DNA of 64,000 bases from Alcanivorax jadensis T9 (GTDB taxonomy: Bacteria > Pseudomonadota > Gammaproteobacteria > Pseudomonadales > Alcanivoracaceae): contig NZ_ARXU01000005.1 in assembly GCF_000756655.1 (NCBI RefSeq), positions 124,001 to 188,000 of the forward strand. Direction: 5' to 3'. Made by a program: the position numbers and the translations under genes. The first letter of the stretch is position 1; every line of letters begins with the position of its first letter. The notes under the pieces are model-generated. The model did no database searches. It was not told the DNA's origin and worked only from the letters and a program-made list of their open reading frames with translations. Positions 30,462 through 37,086 of this stretch are shown here, piece by piece.

Positions 30462-32153
30462 GTGGAAGACGACAACAATAACGATGCGCTGATCGGTAAA
30501 ATCTACGAAACAGCGCTGTCCCCCGGCGACTGGGTCGAGTTGCTGGATACCATTGCCGGCTGGACGGATAGCCGGCCGCCATCCGCCGATCCCGGCAGCT
30601 CTCTGGCAACGCGACAGACTTCCAGCGAAGTGGATCAACTGATTGACCACCTGGAACGGGCGGTGCGTAGCAGTGCCTACATGCATGCCCTGGAAGATCG
30701 TACCCAGGTGCTCAATGCCATGTACAACCAGATGCCCTGGCCCATGCTGATGCTGGATGATGGCATGCAGGTACTGGAATGCAATCCAGTGGCCAGGCTG
30801 GTGCTGGCGGATGGCCCGGTGCAGTTGCATGAAGACGGCAGCCTGCTGTTTGCCGATCGGGAATTGAAACAGGCCCTGGACCGCATCAACCGGATGGCTG
30901 AGGGCCGTGAAACCCGCTTGATCAGTTCTCCCCAGGACGGGGTGTCCCTGTTATGTCTGCCGGTGCAGAAATCCGATGCGCCGGGGACAATTTCCCAGCT
31001 GCGTACTATCGTCTGGGTGTTGGCGGGCCATAGCGTGGTGACGCCATCCCCGGAGATGCTTCGCTCCCTGTTTAATATCTCCCAGGCGGAATCCCGCCTG
31101 CTGCACCTGCTGTGCAAAATCGGCAACCTGAGCCAGAGCGCCAAACTGCTGAATGTCAGCATTCACACCGCCCGTACCCAGCTCAAATCCACTATGGCAA
31201 AACTCAATGCCAACAGCCAGGTACAGCTGGTCAGTCACGCCATGGGCCATGCTCTGGTGCAAGCAGCGAAACTGCCACAAATCCAGCAGGAACAGGAATA
31301 CACCCTGAGCCTGCCAGATCGTCGAGTGCTTAGCTGGTACGAATATGGCGACCCCAATGGCCGCTCGGTACTCACCCTGGACAACCTGGGTGCGGCCATG
31401 CCGGATCATGGCTACTTTGATGGCTGGTATCGTGAAAAAGGGCTACGCATGATCATGATCGTGCGGCCCGGCTACGGCATTTCCACCTACAAGGCGGGTA
31501 TGGAATTCCGGGATTTTGGCCCGGATATTCTCGCCTTGTGTGAGCATCTGGACCTGAATCGTCCACCCATGGCGGCCTACTGTGGGGGAGGCCCCTATGC
31601 CCTCTGTGCGGCAGCGCTATACCCGGACATTTTCGATCGACTTGGCCTGTTGGCCAGCACTGTTCCTATCGAGCACTTCGAATTGGACAAGCTGGACCCG
31701 CTGCACAACATGTTCTTGCGTCTTTTCCGTCGTGACCCGAGGCTATTTGTGTTGGTAGGGCGGTTGGGCATACGCGGGGTGCAGAAGGCGCCAGAAAAAT
31801 TCTTCGCCATGATTGCAAAAGGGTTGTGCGATCAAGACAAGGCTGTGCTGGGTAATCCGGATCTGTTGCAGCGCACCATCAAATCCATGCGTCGCAGTCA
31901 TTTCCAGGGTGCCCGCATTATGATTGATGAGTATCTACGCATGCAGCATCCCTGGCAGGTGGACCTGGGCAAGATTACCGTGCCGGTCATGCAGTGGCAC
32001 GGCGAAGACGACCGGATTATTTCCATCGGCAGCGCCCGCGGCCTGGCGAGTGATTTGCCCGGCGTGGCGTTTCGCAGTTTCCCGGGACTGGGGCGCTTTA
32101 TGGTCTATCCGATGTGGAAGGCGTTTCTTACAGAGTTGCTGGAACTGGACTGA
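30462..32153 (+). CDS. LuxR-type regulator fused to a degenerate alpha/beta-hydrolase domain
   Basis: 563 residues, GTG start. Residues about 85-190 look like a PAS-type sensor (MPWPMLMLDDGMQVLECNPVAR). Residues about 203-265 form a LuxR/GerE helix-turn-helix (SAKLLNVSIHTARTQLKSTMAKL). Residues about 285-563 are an alpha/beta-hydrolase fold. In the nucleophile elbow the usual Ser is Cys374 (AAYCGGGPYAL). The acid is present (HGEDDRI), but the catalytic His position reads Arg545 (GLGRF). The fold therefore probably binds a ligand without normal hydrolysis. The start (GTG) has only a weak ribosome site. It stands alone, and no target gene is obvious. Confidence 0.85.
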   Translation: MEDDNNNDALIGKIYETALSPGDWVELLDTIAGWTDSRPPSADPGSSLATRQTSSEVDQLIDHLERAVRSSAYMHALEDRTQVLNAMYNQMPWPMLMLDDGMQVLECNPVARLVLADGPVQLHEDGSLLFADRELKQALDRINRMAEGRETRLISSPQDGVSLLCLPVQKSDAPGTISQLRTIVWVLAGHSVVTPSPEMLRSLFNISQAESRLLHLLCKIGNLSQSAKLLNVSIHTARTQLKSTMAKLNANSQVQLVSHAMGHALVQAAKLPQIQQEQEYTLSLPDRRVLSWYEYGDPNGRSVLTLDNLGAAMPDHGYFDGWYREKGLRMIMIVRPGYGISTYKAGMEFRDFGPDILALCEHLDLNRPPMAAYCGGGPYALCAAALYPDIFDRLGLLASTVPIEHFELDKLDPLHNMFLRLFRRDPRLFVLVGRLGIRGVQKAPEKFFAMIAKGLCDQDKAVLGNPDLLQRTIKSMRRSHFQGARIMIDEYLRMQHPWQVDLGKITVPVMQWHGEDDRIISIGSARGLASDLPGVAFRSFPGLGRFMVYPMWKAFLTELLELD

Positions 32154-32213
32154 TTCAGAACAGGCGTGAATTTGTCGACGATGCAGTGCGTTTCAGCAGA
32201 CGCCCTTACCTTG

Positions 32214-32645
32214 TCATGCAAGATCGGCAAACTGCTCTCGAAACGCCGTTGGCACGGGCATGATTGCGTGGCTCTGATGATCGAAAAAGACAAAGCCCTG
32301 CTTGGCTAACACTACCAGCTGACCGCCAGGCTGTTTGCTGACCCGGAAAATCAGATCGGCCCCGTACTTGTTGAAATCCATCAATCCCACTTCGAACTGA
32401 AGATCATCTTGAGCGAAACTTTCCGTCTTGTAGGTGGCCACCAGGTCAGTCACCACAATGCTCTGCTTGTCGGTATCGAACTGGTCGAAGCCGATATGGC
32501 AGAAAAACCGGTAACGGGCTTCGGAGAGCAGTGAGATCATCTGGTCGTTGCCCACATGTTTACCGGTATTCAGGTCTGTCATGCGCACATTGATGGTGTG
32601 GGTGTAGATGAACTGCTCGGGCAGATCAAGTTGAACGCGAGCCAT
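32214..32645 (-). CDS. Hotdog-fold acyl-CoA thioesterase
   Basis: 143 residues from the ATG at 32643-32645, which has GGAG upstream; the longer frame adds 29 unlikely residues. The 4HBT pattern is visible: VRMTDLNTGKHVGNDQMISLLSEARYRFF, then DLVATYKTESFAQDDL and VLAKQGFVFFD. The catalytic Asp/Asn of the YbgC/FadM type would be the Asp in MTDLN. It would cleave acyl-CoA in the cytoplasm. The substrate is not evident. Confidence 0.87.
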   Translation of the reverse strand: MARVQLDLPEQFIYTHTINVRMTDLNTGKHVGNDQMISLLSEARYRFFCHIGFDQFDTDKQSIVVTDLVATYKTESFAQDDLQFEVGLMDFNKYGADLIFRVSKQPGGQLVVLAKQGFVFFDHQSHAIMPVPTAFREQFADLA

Positions 32646-32840
32646 ACTGCAGTCTCCAGCGGGGAAGGAGAGGAGTGTAGCAAGGTCTATCGGGTTTAGT
32701 GAAAAAGGATTATGTATTGGGCGGAGTGGCATTCTGGCAACACATGCACCAGCTCAGGAAGTGGTCTGAAAGCACCGTGCCATGGAAGAACGTATGGTAC
32801 GGAGCAGCAATGGTGCTGCTCCATACCCACGACGTGATGG

Positions 32841-33200
32841 TTAAACGTTCAGGTCAGCTTCAACCGATTGGCAATTGCGCCGAGCCAGTGCCAGATTGGA
32901 TTTTGCCTTGTCCAGCACCAGGTACATGAACAGACCTTCATTTTTCGCCACCGGACGGATGATGTGATATTGGGTTCCCAGTGTGATCAGAATATCCTCG
33001 ATGGTGTCTTTGAGTCCCAGTGATTTCATGGTTTTAAGCTTGGCACGAACCACCTCGGTGTTGCCGGCGGCGGCCAACTCAAGATCCAGTCCGGTCCCAT
33101 CCTGACCCAGCACCATGCCACTGTTTGAATCAACAATAGCGGCACACATTGCACCATCGGATTCCAACAGGGTTTTCAGACTCTCAGTAACGTTGCCCAT
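32841..33200 (-). CDS. Roadblock/LC7 domain protein (2nd)
   Basis: 119 residues, no signal peptide. The fold reads as a roadblock/MglB-type alpha/beta longin-like domain: LLESDGAMCAAIVDSNSGMVLGQ, ILITLGTQYHIIRPV and LFMYLVLDKAKSNLALARR. These domains dimerise and regulate small GTPases. It is the last gene of the GTPase operon, 41 bp after the first roadblock gene. The two roadblock proteins are different in sequence, so they are unlikely to be a recent duplicate. Confidence 0.82.
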   Translation of the reverse strand: MGNVTESLKTLLESDGAMCAAIVDSNSGMVLGQDGTGLDLELAAAGNTEVVRAKLKTMKSLGLKDTIEDILITLGTQYHIIRPVAKNEGLFMYLVLDKAKSNLALARRNCQSVEADLNV

Positions 33201-33241
33201 AACTAACTCCTATTATTTTATATTTTCCCTAAAGAGGGGAA

Positions 33242-33652
33242 CTAACTGGCTGCTTTCAATGATTCCGATAGAGCTGCACAACAGTTTTTGGCGCCCCAGA
33301 TCAGTTGCCCGAGCTTGGAGGCGTCATTGGCGACTACGGCCAATGCCAGGGGAGGTGAGCTGTTGGGCACTTTCATCACGGCCACAACGCCCTCCTCGGA
33401 TTCGACAATCAGGCGGCTGCACTCAGAAATGCCCGCTTCTTTTGCTATTGCCGAGCTGATTGCCGCAAGGGAGCTTCCCATTGCGGCAAGCCGGCTGGCT
33501 TTCCCCTTATCGTTTTCCAACGTGGCTATTTCAAAGCCATCACTGCTCAATAGCACGGCAGAGGTGATCCCCGGGGTGGAGTCTTGCAGGATGTGTAGCT
33601 GTTTCTGCGCCATTGCCACGGCAGAATCGCTAAGAGGGTTCCTGTCTTTCAT
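33242..33652 (-). CDS. Roadblock/LC7 domain protein (1st), CvnB/MglB-like
   Basis: 136 residues. TPGITSAVLLSSDGFEIATLE, AAMGSSLAAISSAIAKEAGI and SRLIVESEEGVVAVMKV match the MglB/CvnB roadblock pattern closely (actinobacterial CvnB has the same A-x-GSS-L segment). In Myxococcus MglB is the GAP of MglA. Here the gene overlaps the GTPase gene by 4 bp (ATGA), so the two are translationally coupled, implying a complex. Confidence 0.85.
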   Translation of the reverse strand: MKDRNPLSDSAVAMAQKQLHILQDSTPGITSAVLLSSDGFEIATLENDKGKASRLAAMGSSLAAISSAIAKEAGISECSRLIVESEEGVVAVMKVPNSSPPLALAVVANDASKLGQLIWGAKNCCAALSESLKAAS

Positions 33653-34200
33653 ACTTGCATCAGTTCCATTTCGTTGGCTTCGATCTGACAGAGGAGGGTT
33701 TCAACCAGAAGCAGAACGTCTTCACACTCCCTGACGTCCACGGAAATCACTGGGACAAACAGATGTTTGGCTGCCAGTTTTTCCGTAACCCGGTCGATAC
33801 GTGTGAAGTCATCACTGGAAATCCGGCCAATACCAATAACCAGAGGCGTTTCCCCGTTGTTGGAAAAAGCGTTGGTGTAAAGTTCCAGGTGTTCTTCAAG
33901 GTCCGGGTGTTCGCCGTTCAGCAGGAGGATAACTCCTGCTGCATTGGTAGCCAGAATTGGCCACATGAACTGAAAACGCTCTTGCCCTGGTGTGCCGTAA
34001 AGGCGCACGCCACTACCGTCAGGCAGGCTGATATAACCGTAATCCAGACCGGCGGTCGTCATTTCCTTGTTGCACTGCTCTAAATCAGTGTTTATCACAT
34101 CCGTGGAGACACATTCCTGATCACTGAGTTGAGTGATTGCCGTAGTCTTACCGGCGCCCATCGGGCCGGTGAAAAGGATTTTGAATTCGTTGCTTATCAT
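33649..34200 (-). CDS. Small Ras-like GTPase, CvnD/COG2229-type
   Basis: 183 residues. P-loop GPMGAGKTT at residues 12-20, followed by the switch 2 block LYGTPGQERFQFMWPIL with the GTPGQxRFxFMW pattern of Streptomyces CvnD. The base-recognition NKxD motif is replaced by GIGRISSDD, also usual in this group. It should switch between GDP and GTP forms, controlled by the roadblock proteins. The gene begins 4 bp after the 323-residue gene and runs into the first roadblock gene. Confidence 0.9.
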   Translation of the reverse strand: MISNEFKILFTGPMGAGKTTAITQLSDQECVSTDVINTDLEQCNKEMTTAGLDYGYISLPDGSGVRLYGTPGQERFQFMWPILATNAAGVILLLNGEHPDLEEHLELYTNAFSNNGETPLVIGIGRISSDDFTRIDRVTEKLAAKHLFVPVISVDVRECEDVLLLVETLLCQIEANEMELMQV

Positions 34201-34204
34201 TATT

Positions 34205-35176
34205 TCAGCTCAATCCCAGACGTGTTCTCAGGCCTTTGATCATCCCACCGAGGCGATGGTGTTCCGCGCCAGCTTGTACTGATGGGGCTATAGCAGAGGG
34301 CGGTCTCACCTGACTGACCAGTAACCCGCTAATTTCACAAGCATTGATGAAGTGATAAAGCGCCTTGTCATCACAATGTGAAAGTGTCTTCAGCTCTGAC
34401 AGCGTCAGTGCACGGCGGGTCATCAGGGCACACAAGGAGAGCAACTGCCGGGATTTATTCAGCGCTGCAGCACTGGGCCAACGGCTCAATTTGAAATGGC
34501 TGTCTTCATCCAGCCAGGGCAGCAGGTCATTGCAATGGTTAGCTCCGGTTAGCCAGGCGAGCTCAAACAGTGGCCGTGGCACCATGCCCTCGGAAACGGG
34601 TTCGCTGCTGGGGCTTAAAGGGCTAAAAGACACTGGGCCTGCGGACAAGGCGTGTAGCAATGCGGGCCGTGCGTAAAACCGGTGGCTTCCGGGTTTTACC
34701 AGTAAAAGGCCTTCCGGACTTTGGCTGCTGTACAGTTCAGTCGACCCCTTGTTATTGATAACCCGGTATAAACTGGCACAAAAATCGACGCTAGGTAGTG
34801 ATGAGTTTCCTTCTGATTCAGACACTTCACGATTATGCTCAGCATGACTGGATGAAGTATCCAAAGATCGCAGTACCTCATCCAACACATCCAGCAGCTG
34901 CATGACTCGAAATGGGTGTGGCAGCGCAAAAGCGGATGCTGGTTTTTCCTCAGAGCTGGGGTAAATGACGATACAGGGTTTTTGGCTCAGGTCGTCCTGG
35001 CTGGTTTGTGCCTCTTGCAGACTGGACACCATGAGAACATCCGCCATCGCAGGTGTTGCCTGGCTCCAGTGTACTGAGGAACGGCCATCAATGATTTTCA
35101 GCATGGAAAGACAGGCACTGACCGTGTCTTCTCCCAATCCGATAAATCCAAGACGCTGTGTTTGCATTTGTGCCAT
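34205..35176 (-). CDS. Unrecognised 323-residue protein, first gene of the GTPase operon
   Basis: I do not recognise the family. The first 95 residues (LGFIGLGEDTVSACLSMLKIIDG, ADVLMVSSLQEA, PCIVIYPSSEE, FRVMQLLDVLDEVLRSL) alternate strand and helix as in a response-regulator receiver or flavodoxin fold, but the phospho-acceptor Asp is not clear. A linker of about 45 residues, rich in Ser and Glu, leads to a C-terminal helical part (TLSELKTLSHCDDKALYHFINACEISGLL) that could be a winged helix. No membrane segment. As the first gene it may be the input or output of the GTPase switch. Confidence 0.75.
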   Translation of the reverse strand: MAQMQTQRLGFIGLGEDTVSACLSMLKIIDGRSSVHWSQATPAMADVLMVSSLQEAQTSQDDLSQKPCIVIYPSSEEKPASAFALPHPFRVMQLLDVLDEVLRSLDTSSSHAEHNREVSESEGNSSLPSVDFCASLYRVINNKGSTELYSSQSPEGLLLVKPGSHRFYARPALLHALSAGPVSFSPLSPSSEPVSEGMVPRPLFELAWLTGANHCNDLLPWLDEDSHFKLSRWPSAAALNKSRQLLSLCALMTRRALTLSELKTLSHCDDKALYHFINACEISGLLVSQVRPPSAIAPSVQAGAEHHRLGGMIKGLRTRLGLS

Positions 35177-35550
35177 CCGAGATCCGGTAGTACCGGTTAC
35201 TGCAATAGTGGCGAAAACTGCTGATCGCCATCAGTTAGTGATCTATGTCTCAATTATTAGTAGCGGGACGCCCAGCAGGGCAAAGGGATCGCGACAGGCG
35301 GAGACTTTCAAGGGATGAGTTGATGTTGCGATCACGTCATATTGACCGTCTTTGTTGGCGGTTTTCTGAAGCGAAGGAACGATTTTTTTATAACAGGATG
35401 ATTAATAAGGAAAATATTATTATTTGAAAAAATAAGTGACGTTGGTTGTGAGGTAACGAAATAAATGTACGCCTTTTCCTACATTTGCCATTCACTTGTA
35501 AGACATTGCTTACCGATGGTTGAAATTTCTCCCTCTGTTATCTCTGGAAG
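35177..35550. other. AT-rich intergenic region upstream of the GTPase operon
   Basis: 374 bases with no convincing gene. The part at about 35380-35480 is strongly AT-rich (TTTTTTTATAAC, AATATTATTATTTG) in contrast to the GC-rich surroundings. It holds the promoter of the GTPase operon on the minus strand. Candidate AT-rich -10 sequences are present, but none is decisive. Confidence 0.5.
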
Positions 35551-37086
35551 CTAGCCGATTCCGCCATAACGAACCCCGGCCAGGGCAGCCATTTCCCGAT
35601 CAAAGGTTGCCAGGTCTTCCAGGGTAAATTGATTCAGATGGTGGTGGCCGCAGGCGCGGGCCATGACTTGCATCAGCTCTGTTGAGGCATGGAAGAAGTT
35701 GGCCAGCCGGTGGGCAGCGTGGTCCACGTCCAGACGTTTTCGCAATTCCTCGTTCTGGGTGGCGATGCCGGCGGGGCATTGGTTGGTATTGCACATGCGG
35801 GCGCCAACGCAGCCAATGGCCTGCATGGCGCTGTTGGACAGGGCAATACCATCGGCCCCCAGGGCCAGAGCTTTGACGAAATCCATGGGCATGCGCAGGC
35901 CGCCGGTGATCATCAGAGTGACGTTGCCGCTGGCGCCCTGGTCATCCAGATAGCGGCGGGCGCGGGCCAGGGCGGGGATGGTGGGCACGCTGATGTGGTC
36001 GCGGAACATGGCGGGTGCAGCCCCGGTGCCGCCGCCCCGGCCATCCAGAATGATGTAGTCGGCGCTGGCATCCAGGGCGAACTGGATGTCTCTTTCGATA
36101 TGGTTAGCGCTCAGTTTGAACCCCACCGGTATGCCGCCGGACACTTCCCGCACCCGGTCGGCGAAACGTTTGAAATCATCGCTGCTGTGCAGCTCCCTGA
36201 AGGTGGCAGGGGAGATGGCCGGCTGGCCTTCGGGAATGTGGCGCACCTGGGAAATCTTGCCCACGTTCTTGTTGGCAGGCAGATGGCCGCCGGTGCCGGT
36301 CTTGGCGCCCTGGCCACCCTTGAAGTGAAACGCCTGCACCTTCTTCAGATGGTCCTCGGTATAGCCAAACATGGCGCTGGCCAACTCGTAAAAATAGCGG
36401 GAATTGGCGGCCTGTTCTTCCGGCAGCATGCCGCCCTCGCCGGAACAGATGCCGGTGCCGGCCAGGTCTGCGCCCCGTGCCAGTGACACCTTCGCCTCCT
36501 CGGAAAGTGCACCGAAGCTCATGTCCGAGACCATCAGGGGAATCGCCAGCGTTAGCGGTTTGTCCGCTCTGGGACCGATCATCAGTTCGGTGCCTACGGG
36601 TTGGTCATCCAGCAGCGGTTGGGTGGCCATCTGCGCCACCATGATCTGGATATCATCCCATTTGGGCAGGCAGTCACGGGGGACGCCCATGGCGGTCATG
36701 GGGCCATGATGGCCGACTTTATCGAGCCCGTTTTCCGCCAGGTCGTGGATCAGGGCCACGTTGGGTTCCTCTGCGGTGGCCTTGGGCTGTGGCATGCCGT
36801 CCCGCTGGATACTCTCCGGGCCGGGGCCTTCTTCGCCGACCTGGTCTTTGCTGAACCGGGCGTGGGTGCCATCGCAATAGGGGAAGTTGCCGCTATGCTT
36901 GCACATGCACAGGTAGCCTTCGTCCTTGTCGGCTTCGAAGCCGAGGGGCGTGATATCGGTGCCCGCATGGGAGCCATCGCAGAAGGGCTGGTTGGCGGAA
37001 CGACCGCAGCGGCAGAAGTGGTAGGTTTCACAGGGTTTGAGTTCGGTTTTCCGGGGCTTGATATCGGCGATGACGGGCTTGGACAT
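35551..37086 (-). CDS. CDGSH iron-sulfur domains fused to glutamate-synthase-like FMN domain
   Basis: 511 residues. The N-terminal 80 residues hold two CDGSH (mitoNEET-type) [2Fe-2S] motifs, CRCGRSANQPFCDGSH and CMCKHSGNFPYCDGTH. Residues about 125-500 are the FMN-binding TIM-barrel of glutamate synthase (GltB2): MSFGALSEEAKVSLARGA, GICSGEGG, KGGQGAKTGTGGHLP, ILDGRGGGTGAAP and GCVGARMCNTNQCPAGIATQ, whose Cys residues form the 3Fe-4S type cluster. The glutamine amidotransferase half is missing, so an alternative electron-transfer or amination role is likely. It has a long intergenic region on either side and no obvious operon partner. Confidence 0.9.
   Translation of the reverse strand: MSKPVIADIKPRKTELKPCETYHFCRCGRSANQPFCDGSHAGTDITPLGFEADKDEGYLCMCKHSGNFPYCDGTHARFSKDQVGEEGPGPESIQRDGMPQPKATAEEPNVALIHDLAENGLDKVGHHGPMTAMGVPRDCLPKWDDIQIMVAQMATQPLLDDQPVGTELMIGPRADKPLTLAIPLMVSDMSFGALSEEAKVSLARGADLAGTGICSGEGGMLPEEQAANSRYFYELASAMFGYTEDHLKKVQAFHFKGGQGAKTGTGGHLPANKNVGKISQVRHIPEGQPAISPATFRELHSSDDFKRFADRVREVSGGIPVGFKLSANHIERDIQFALDASADYIILDGRGGGTGAAPAMFRDHISVPTIPALARARRYLDDQGASGNVTLMITGGLRMPMDFVKALALGADGIALSNSAMQAIGCVGARMCNTNQCPAGIATQNEELRKRLDVDHAAHRLANFFHASTELMQVMARACGHHHLNQFTLEDLATFDREMAALAGVRYGGIG

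Follow-up and report, generated by a model that had tools for sequence, protein, structure and literature searches.

An Alcanivorax jadensis operon with Group 3 MglA features and a receiver-like/winged-helix protein that ends in a conserved amphipathic tail

How might a bacterium use a small Ras-type GTPase that is encoded together with two different roadblock proteins and a partner that matches no Pfam family? This question is raised by four tightly packed genes on the minus strand of a 64,000-nt stretch of Alcanivorax jadensis T9 DNA (the window, whose numbering is used throughout). They encode a 323-residue protein that we call A323 (34205..35176), a Ras-type GTPase of 183 residues (33649..34200), and the roadblock/LC7 proteins RB1 (136 residues, 33242..33652) and RB2 (119 residues, 32841..33200). 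A gap of 4 bp separates the A323 and GTPase genes, the GTPase and RB1 genes overlap by 4 bp, and 41 bp lie between RB1 and RB2; the open reading frames (ORFs) are exactly as a first-pass annotation of the sequence had described them. That annotation framed the locus as a kinase-less conservon. The framing is misleading, as the operon fits a separate published class, the Group 3 MglA systems, whose first gene is of the A323 kind, judging by its gene set, G-motifs, host clade, and receiver-like plus winged-helix partner. The class is already published and the window operon is a further member of it; what we add is the conservation of the A323 tail and a reinterpretation of A323 as a membrane scaffold.

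Group 3 systems, as set out in the sections devoted to them in Wuichet and Sogaard-Andersen (2014, PMC4316618), combine MglA and one or two MglB proteins with a conserved unknown protein that has a receiver-like N-terminus, a variable linker, and a winged helix-turn-helix (wHTH). They are found almost exclusively in beta- and gammaproteobacteria, including Neisseria, Stenotrophomonas, and Xanthomonas, and their GTPases carry GTPGQ, a threonine in G2, a deviant G4, and a DAR motif. The window GTPase reads GPMGAGKTT in the P-loop, EMTTAGLDYG in G2, LYGTPGQERF in G3, IGIGRISS in G4, and VDVRE in G5. Thus every Group 3 feature that was tested is present, namely GTPGQ, TT in place of the arginine finger, a G4 that departs from [NT]KxD, a D-x-R G5, coupling to MglB, and a receiver-like/wHTH neighbor, and no tested feature of the operon excludes membership. 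The marks of Group 1 MglA, an arginine finger in G2 and TVPGQ in G3, are replaced by TT and GTPGQ. The same pattern holds among 80 named relatives (the best 80 of 572 confirmed matches, whose record titles name beta/gamma groups or Proteobacteria only), where pattern searches on the matched ranges found TT, G.PG[QH], and DxR in all 80, GTPGQ in 74, GxxGxGKTT in 60, and [NT]KxD in 3.

The call of a Ras-type GTPase is confirmed by both family and structure profiles. Pfam ATP_bind_1 scored above its cut-off, with Roc, Ras, and NCBIfam small_GTP below theirs, and a profile search against PDB structures gave Sec4 and Rab proteins as its top matches, with MglA at 6e-9 (among the best 60 of 504 matches). 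A defense system was considered and rejected, as PADLOC returned only weak matches to the P-loop part of the GTPase and none to the other three proteins. Several relatives depart from the simple single GTPase. Genomes of family f38 carry long GTPase ORFs of 318–361 residues, some in tandem, and three Thiotrichaceae/Thiomargarita records (L086, L112, and L123) have two GTPase genes of this family per locus, which flank A323 in L086 and L112. At L158:1438-2469, the C-terminal half of a GTPase is weakly Robl_LC7-like (E 0.0067, below the cut-off) and has no match to the RB1 or RB2 profiles; we tentatively regard it as a natural GTPase–roadblock fusion.

The two roadblock proteins were recognized by different routes. 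RB1 matches Pfam Robl_LC7 (E 8e-10), carries an Asp-Gly pair (D38 G39) in the alignment, and its profile matches the structures of mycobacterial Rv3364c, archaeal roadblocks, LAMTOR2, and CvnB5. RB2 by itself has no Pfam Robl_LC7 match, and its relatives (n = 53) gave weak matches to Robl_LC7 in 4 cases and to LAMTOR5 in 11 (best E 4.5e-4). With narrow profiles, the homology of RB2 to RB1 reached only 1.3% and the family profile found no roadblock chain among PDB sequences; a wider RB1 profile gave 47.6%, and the identity of RB2 was then settled by a fold search. Its AlphaFold model (predicted local distance difference test score, pLDDT, 93.6) has MglB of the MglA–MglB complex 3t12 as best Foldseek match (E 8e-7, template-modeling (TM) score 0.84) and superposes on MglB of Thermus and Myxococcus with best TM scores of 0.8–0.85. 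By this model, RB2 is a roadblock protein with the predicted MglB fold, and the earlier statement that the operon holds two different roadblock proteins stands. In some relatives a further small gene lies between RB1 and RB2. One such gene (L056:6913-7347, the L056 copy without a Pfam match) belongs to a cluster present in 16 loci, and in six loci an ORF in this position weakly matches the RB2 profile (E 5e-5 to 4e-2); the extra gene is possibly a third roadblock.

Do these genes belong together? Of 46 family genomes, 16 carry the full operon with its order kept; 15 of these are among the 17 of the genus and one is in another genus. For all four genes, dN/dS is ~0.06–0.12 (against one relative, L003, with synonymous sites near saturation), and they look to be under purifying selection. 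Given these low ratios and the togetherness in 16 of 46 genomes, the operon is not a chance arrangement. Across ten distant genus members (L006–L009, L011–L016), identity to the window is 38–49% for A323, 64–71% for the GTPase, 55–76% for RB1, and 81–84% for RB2, so that RB2 has changed least among the distant members, although RB1 equals or narrowly exceeds it in the two closest relatives (dN against L003 is 0.065 for RB1 and 0.074 for RB2).

Linkage extends well beyond the family. It was scored within 3 kb of the GTPase in the 80 named loci with two profile sets, one built from the family only and one widened on those same loci. An A323 homologue was present in 71 of 80 loci (E 1e-3) or 75 (E 0.05) by the family-only profiles and in 76 by the widened one, and a roadblock in 74 (E 1e-3), 75 (E 0.05), and 75, respectively. 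By the widened profiles, at least two roadblocks occur in 49 of 80 loci (contig ends cut some of these loci), A323 is missing in four, of which L052 and L082 end at a contig edge, and no roadblock was found in five, of which L115 is cut by its contig and the other four are Acinetobacter. The commonest gene order is that of the window, A323–GTPase–RB1–RB2, and GTPase–RB1–A323–RB2 occurs in three Acinetobacter; entries with two successive A323 genes may be one gene matched as two pieces. The same arrangement recurs among named beta/gamma relatives; Acinetobacter, Moraxella, and Pseudomonas relatives are among the matches. Across 390 genomes from the order, the GTPase and RB2 both match strongly in 39, the GTPase alone in 11 (two of which match RB2 weakly), and RB2 alone in one. 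The first-pass annotation had said that its reading would fail if the roadblock proteins lacked that fold or the genes were not conserved together; as far as this was examined, which is in part, RB1 has its family match, RB2 its predicted fold, and by linkage in the 46 family genomes and 80 named loci the genes travel together.

The first gene had been called unrecognized. This is right in that A323 has no Pfam match; the protein can, however, be dissected into a receiver-like domain (residues ~4–110), a middle region (~128–222), a winged helix (~224–290), and a basic amphipathic C-terminal helix (307–323). Since homologues align from Met4, its true start may be 35167 instead of 35176. An AlphaFold model built with 74 sequences (pLDDT 87.6, predicted TM (pTM) score 0.60) has low confidence at ~114–126 and modest confidence after 290. 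The N-terminal part matched a profile of 27 receivers from the same genome in hhalign (92%, E 6.6e-7) and the C-terminal part a profile of 17 MarR winged helices (95%, E 2.6e-8), against 0.1–0.3% in four cross-controls. Searched as a whole against PDB folds, the model returned PleD and a bacteriophytochrome response regulator with probability 0.99 and low TM over the whole model, and nothing at E ≤0.001. Shorter homologues lack the middle region (its length ranges over 0–121 residues). A roadblock fold is not supported for it (hhalign 0.2–0.4% against the RB1 and RB2 profiles), and PATAN/DUF4388 is absent from the 25 best-represented of 43 Pfam families matched by the 74 homologues at E 0.5, with 114 genomes of the bacterial class giving no DUF4388 (E 1e-6) for comparison.

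At the phospho-acceptor position of the receiver-like domain, at the end of strand 3, the window has Ser51, and the 74 homologues have Asp in 32 cases and Asn in 18. In the acidic-pair region, Gly13-Leu14 end strand 1 and Glu16-Asp17 come next, with position 18 acidic in 43 of 74 homologues; the alignment to the receiver profile starts past strand 1. All homologues keep the proline that follows the conserved-lysine position (74/74). Because a serine occupies the acceptor position, phosphorylation in the usual way is unlikely, and the domain is better read as a putative protein-binding pseudo-receiver. A stand-alone paralogue of this domain (~102 residues, without the winged helix or tail) exists in the window genome on contig 13 (L046:1510-1818, no Pfam match) and in L044, L047, and L048, between genes for a patatin-like phospholipase and an AraC-type regulator, both named by eye from sequence.

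The most conserved part of A323 is its tail. These last 17 residues form a basic amphipathic helix after a poorly conserved linker of 10–80 residues, with a mean pairwise identity of 0.74 among 15 family members and 0.32 among the 74 homologues, against 0.60 and 0.24 for the next best part and 0.19 and 0.10 for the linker. A basic amphipathic end segment was found in 63 of 74 A323 homologues, compared with 17 of 291 control ORFs, 0 of 83 GTPases, 6 of 66 RB1, 0 of 40 RB2, and 15% of shuffled tails, where the call depends on a cut set in the script and the control ORFs, chosen by homology between loci, may include some false ORFs. The tail may resemble the membrane-targeting helix of MinD. The Group 3 sections of PMC4316618 mention neither this conserved tail nor the short forms without the middle region.

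On the observed domain content, gene linkage, motif classes, and conservation and amphipathicity of the tail, we propose that the operon encodes a Group 3 MglA/MglB switch in which A323 is a membrane-docked pseudo-receiver/wHTH scaffold and a surface machine is the target, a reading that we give an even chance of being right. The GTPase would be the nucleotide-dependent switch. RB1 and RB2, as homodimers or a heterodimer, could form a regulatory platform acting as GTPase-activating protein (GAP), scaffold, or both. A323 would be the partner of the system, with a winged helix that more probably serves as a binding module than reads DNA, and its tail would dock the assembly on the inner membrane. 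The polarity or signaling role suggested in the first-pass annotation is an inference; the module would most likely govern the place or the timing of activity of a surface machine, type IV pili for example. A PilT-family gene is found in 50 of 50 genomes with a strong GTPase match and in 338 of 390 overall (Fisher p 6e-4), which is a weak indication of a type IV pilus link.

Several observations weigh against this proposal. PilT-family genes are close to universal, with a match in the E. coli control as well, and the count is confounded by relatedness. No ORF cluster outside the operon occurs in more than 10 of the 80 loci among the 45 largest clusters, which are unannotated and in which pilus genes were not sought by name (this count sets aside clusters that overlap or oppose operon genes and the extra small gene of 16 loci). 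Four Acinetobacter loci (L111, L114, L125, and L128, the last a metagenome-assembled genome) have A323 and the GTPase with no roadblock within 3 kb by the profiles. Because A323 has no strongly hydrophobic segment (maximum KD19 1.27), membrane association would have to come from the tail, which is modeled with modest confidence, and basic amphipathic helices also bind proteins or nucleic acid.

The strongest rival is that A323 is a DNA-binding transcription regulator of a Group 3 system, under GTPase/roadblock control and with gene expression as output; the authors of PMC4316618 propose transcription control in their Group 3 sections. The receiver-like plus winged-helix architecture seen by AlphaFold and hhalign is what such a regulator would have, and the TrmB model picks up 8 of the 74 homologues (best E 1.4e-4) and the HTH_20, ArsR, and MarR models two or three each. 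The details of both domains agree less well. The third helix of the wHTH, the putative recognition helix, contains 6.3% Lys/Arg and 9.8% Asp/Glu, compared with 17.6% and 13.9% in 17 MarR-type proteins of the genus, a composition that argues softly against DNA reading; the comparison is a small one, and wHTH proteins with few basic residues in this helix can bind DNA. The acceptor aspartate, a serine in the window, is kept in fewer than half of the homologues, and conservation peaks in the tail. A membrane-tethered scaffold is favored over transcription control because the tail is the most conserved part and the recognition helix is poor in basic residues, and we consider a transcription regulator possible, if on the unlikely side. 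A different division of labor would have RB1 alone serve the GTPase. RB2 would then be an independent adaptor, comparable to MglC, with its task elsewhere and only its expression shared. Within the genus RB2 is more conserved than the GTPase (81–98% against 64–97% identity to the window); it lies far from the GTPase on the same contig in G235, and the two sit on different contigs in the draft genomes G168, G213, G328, and G377. Its strong match without a strong GTPase match in just one of 390 genomes speaks against this reading, and we think a separate adaptor improbable.

That leaves the conservon itself, that is, a degenerate locus of actinobacterial type that has lost the CvnA kinase and CvnC (DUF742) and recruited an unrelated first gene. 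Conservons (CvnABCD, Group 2) share with the window operon a GTPase, a roadblock, and common G-motif features, since according to the same sections of PMC4316618 Groups 2 and 3 have GTPGQ and deviant G4/G5 motifs in common, and the RB1 profile matches the structures of CvnB5 and Rv3364c. They differ from it in having a histidine kinase and a DUF742 protein, whereas the window has two roadblocks and another first gene. As the first-pass annotation had noted, both the kinase and DUF742 are absent; no match to a kinase or to DUF742 was found among the seven proteins scanned at 30462-37086. The conservon reading fails because these two defining genes are missing. Moreover, Group 3 is a clade of its own in the published MglA tree and has its own conserved first gene (the Group 3 sections of PMC4316618), and the arrangement recurs in named beta/gamma relatives, so we regard a degenerate conservon as very improbable.

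Returning to a membrane-docked switch, one working model is the Myxococcus system of MglA/MglB with RomR/RomX and RomY, in which a Ras-type GTPase and a roadblock GAP act with a receiver-containing partner and a second, GAP-stimulating protein (PMC9481161). Its Group 1 GTPase differs from that of the window in having an arginine finger and TVPGQ, and its partners are encoded elsewhere (PMC4316618). Literature searches found only PMC4316618 and PMC11112851 directly on the class, the latter being the sole phenotype found. In that 2024 study of Snodgrassella, a Group 3 organism with a missense change in an orphan mglB differed in soft-agar colony edges and in gut colonization, an observation in favor of a surface machine as target. 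The Snodgrassella group 3 mgl locus resembles the window in having one mglA and two coupled roadblock genes; unlike anything in the window, the selected change lies in a third, orphan mglB (PMC11112851).

The operon lies 374 bp from an upstream CDGSH/glutamate-synthase-like gene and 108 bp from a downstream thioesterase-like gene, which are present in 4 and 3, respectively, of the 16 family loci with the operon (flanks are short). In the 108-bp gap after RB2, RNA folding of 32760-32845 gave −35.6 kcal/mol (z −6.05), with a strong minus-strand hairpin at 32791..32831 that is a possible transcript end and may close the operon; a terminator scan found no U-tract terminator there. Two proteins encoded near the operon combine different domains. 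The upstream neighbor (35551-37086) joins two CDGSH iron-sulfur motifs to a glutamate-synthase-like flavin mononucleotide domain, and the one at 30462-32153 combines a weak LuxR-type helix-turn-helix in mid-protein with a C-terminal alpha/beta hydrolase domain, an unusual regulator–enzyme fusion.

Ragulator (LAMTOR1-5) works with Rag GTPases in eukaryotes. Like the window operon, it brings several different roadblocks together with a GTPase; the relatives of RB2 are weakly LAMTOR5-like, and A323 might be a membrane-anchored scaffold. Unlike Ragulator, the operon has no demonstrated LAMTOR1 homologue, and the resemblance may be a general feature of the roadblock fold. A bacterial counterpart of Ragulator, in which a tail-anchored A323 would carry an RB1–RB2 heterodimer that recruits or traps the Ras-type GTPase at an inner-membrane site, is compatible with these results, and we hold it to be unlikely.

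Group 3 systems are spread across beta- and gammaproteobacteria, with one phenotype study found. If the Ragulator-like reading is right, this widespread class would be a membrane-positioned switch and not a transcription system, and the conserved amphipathic tail provides a simple way to separate a membrane switch from a transcription regulator. A membrane scaffold with two roadblocks and a Ras-type GTPase would, if true, also be a useful bacterial comparison for Ragulator–Rag.

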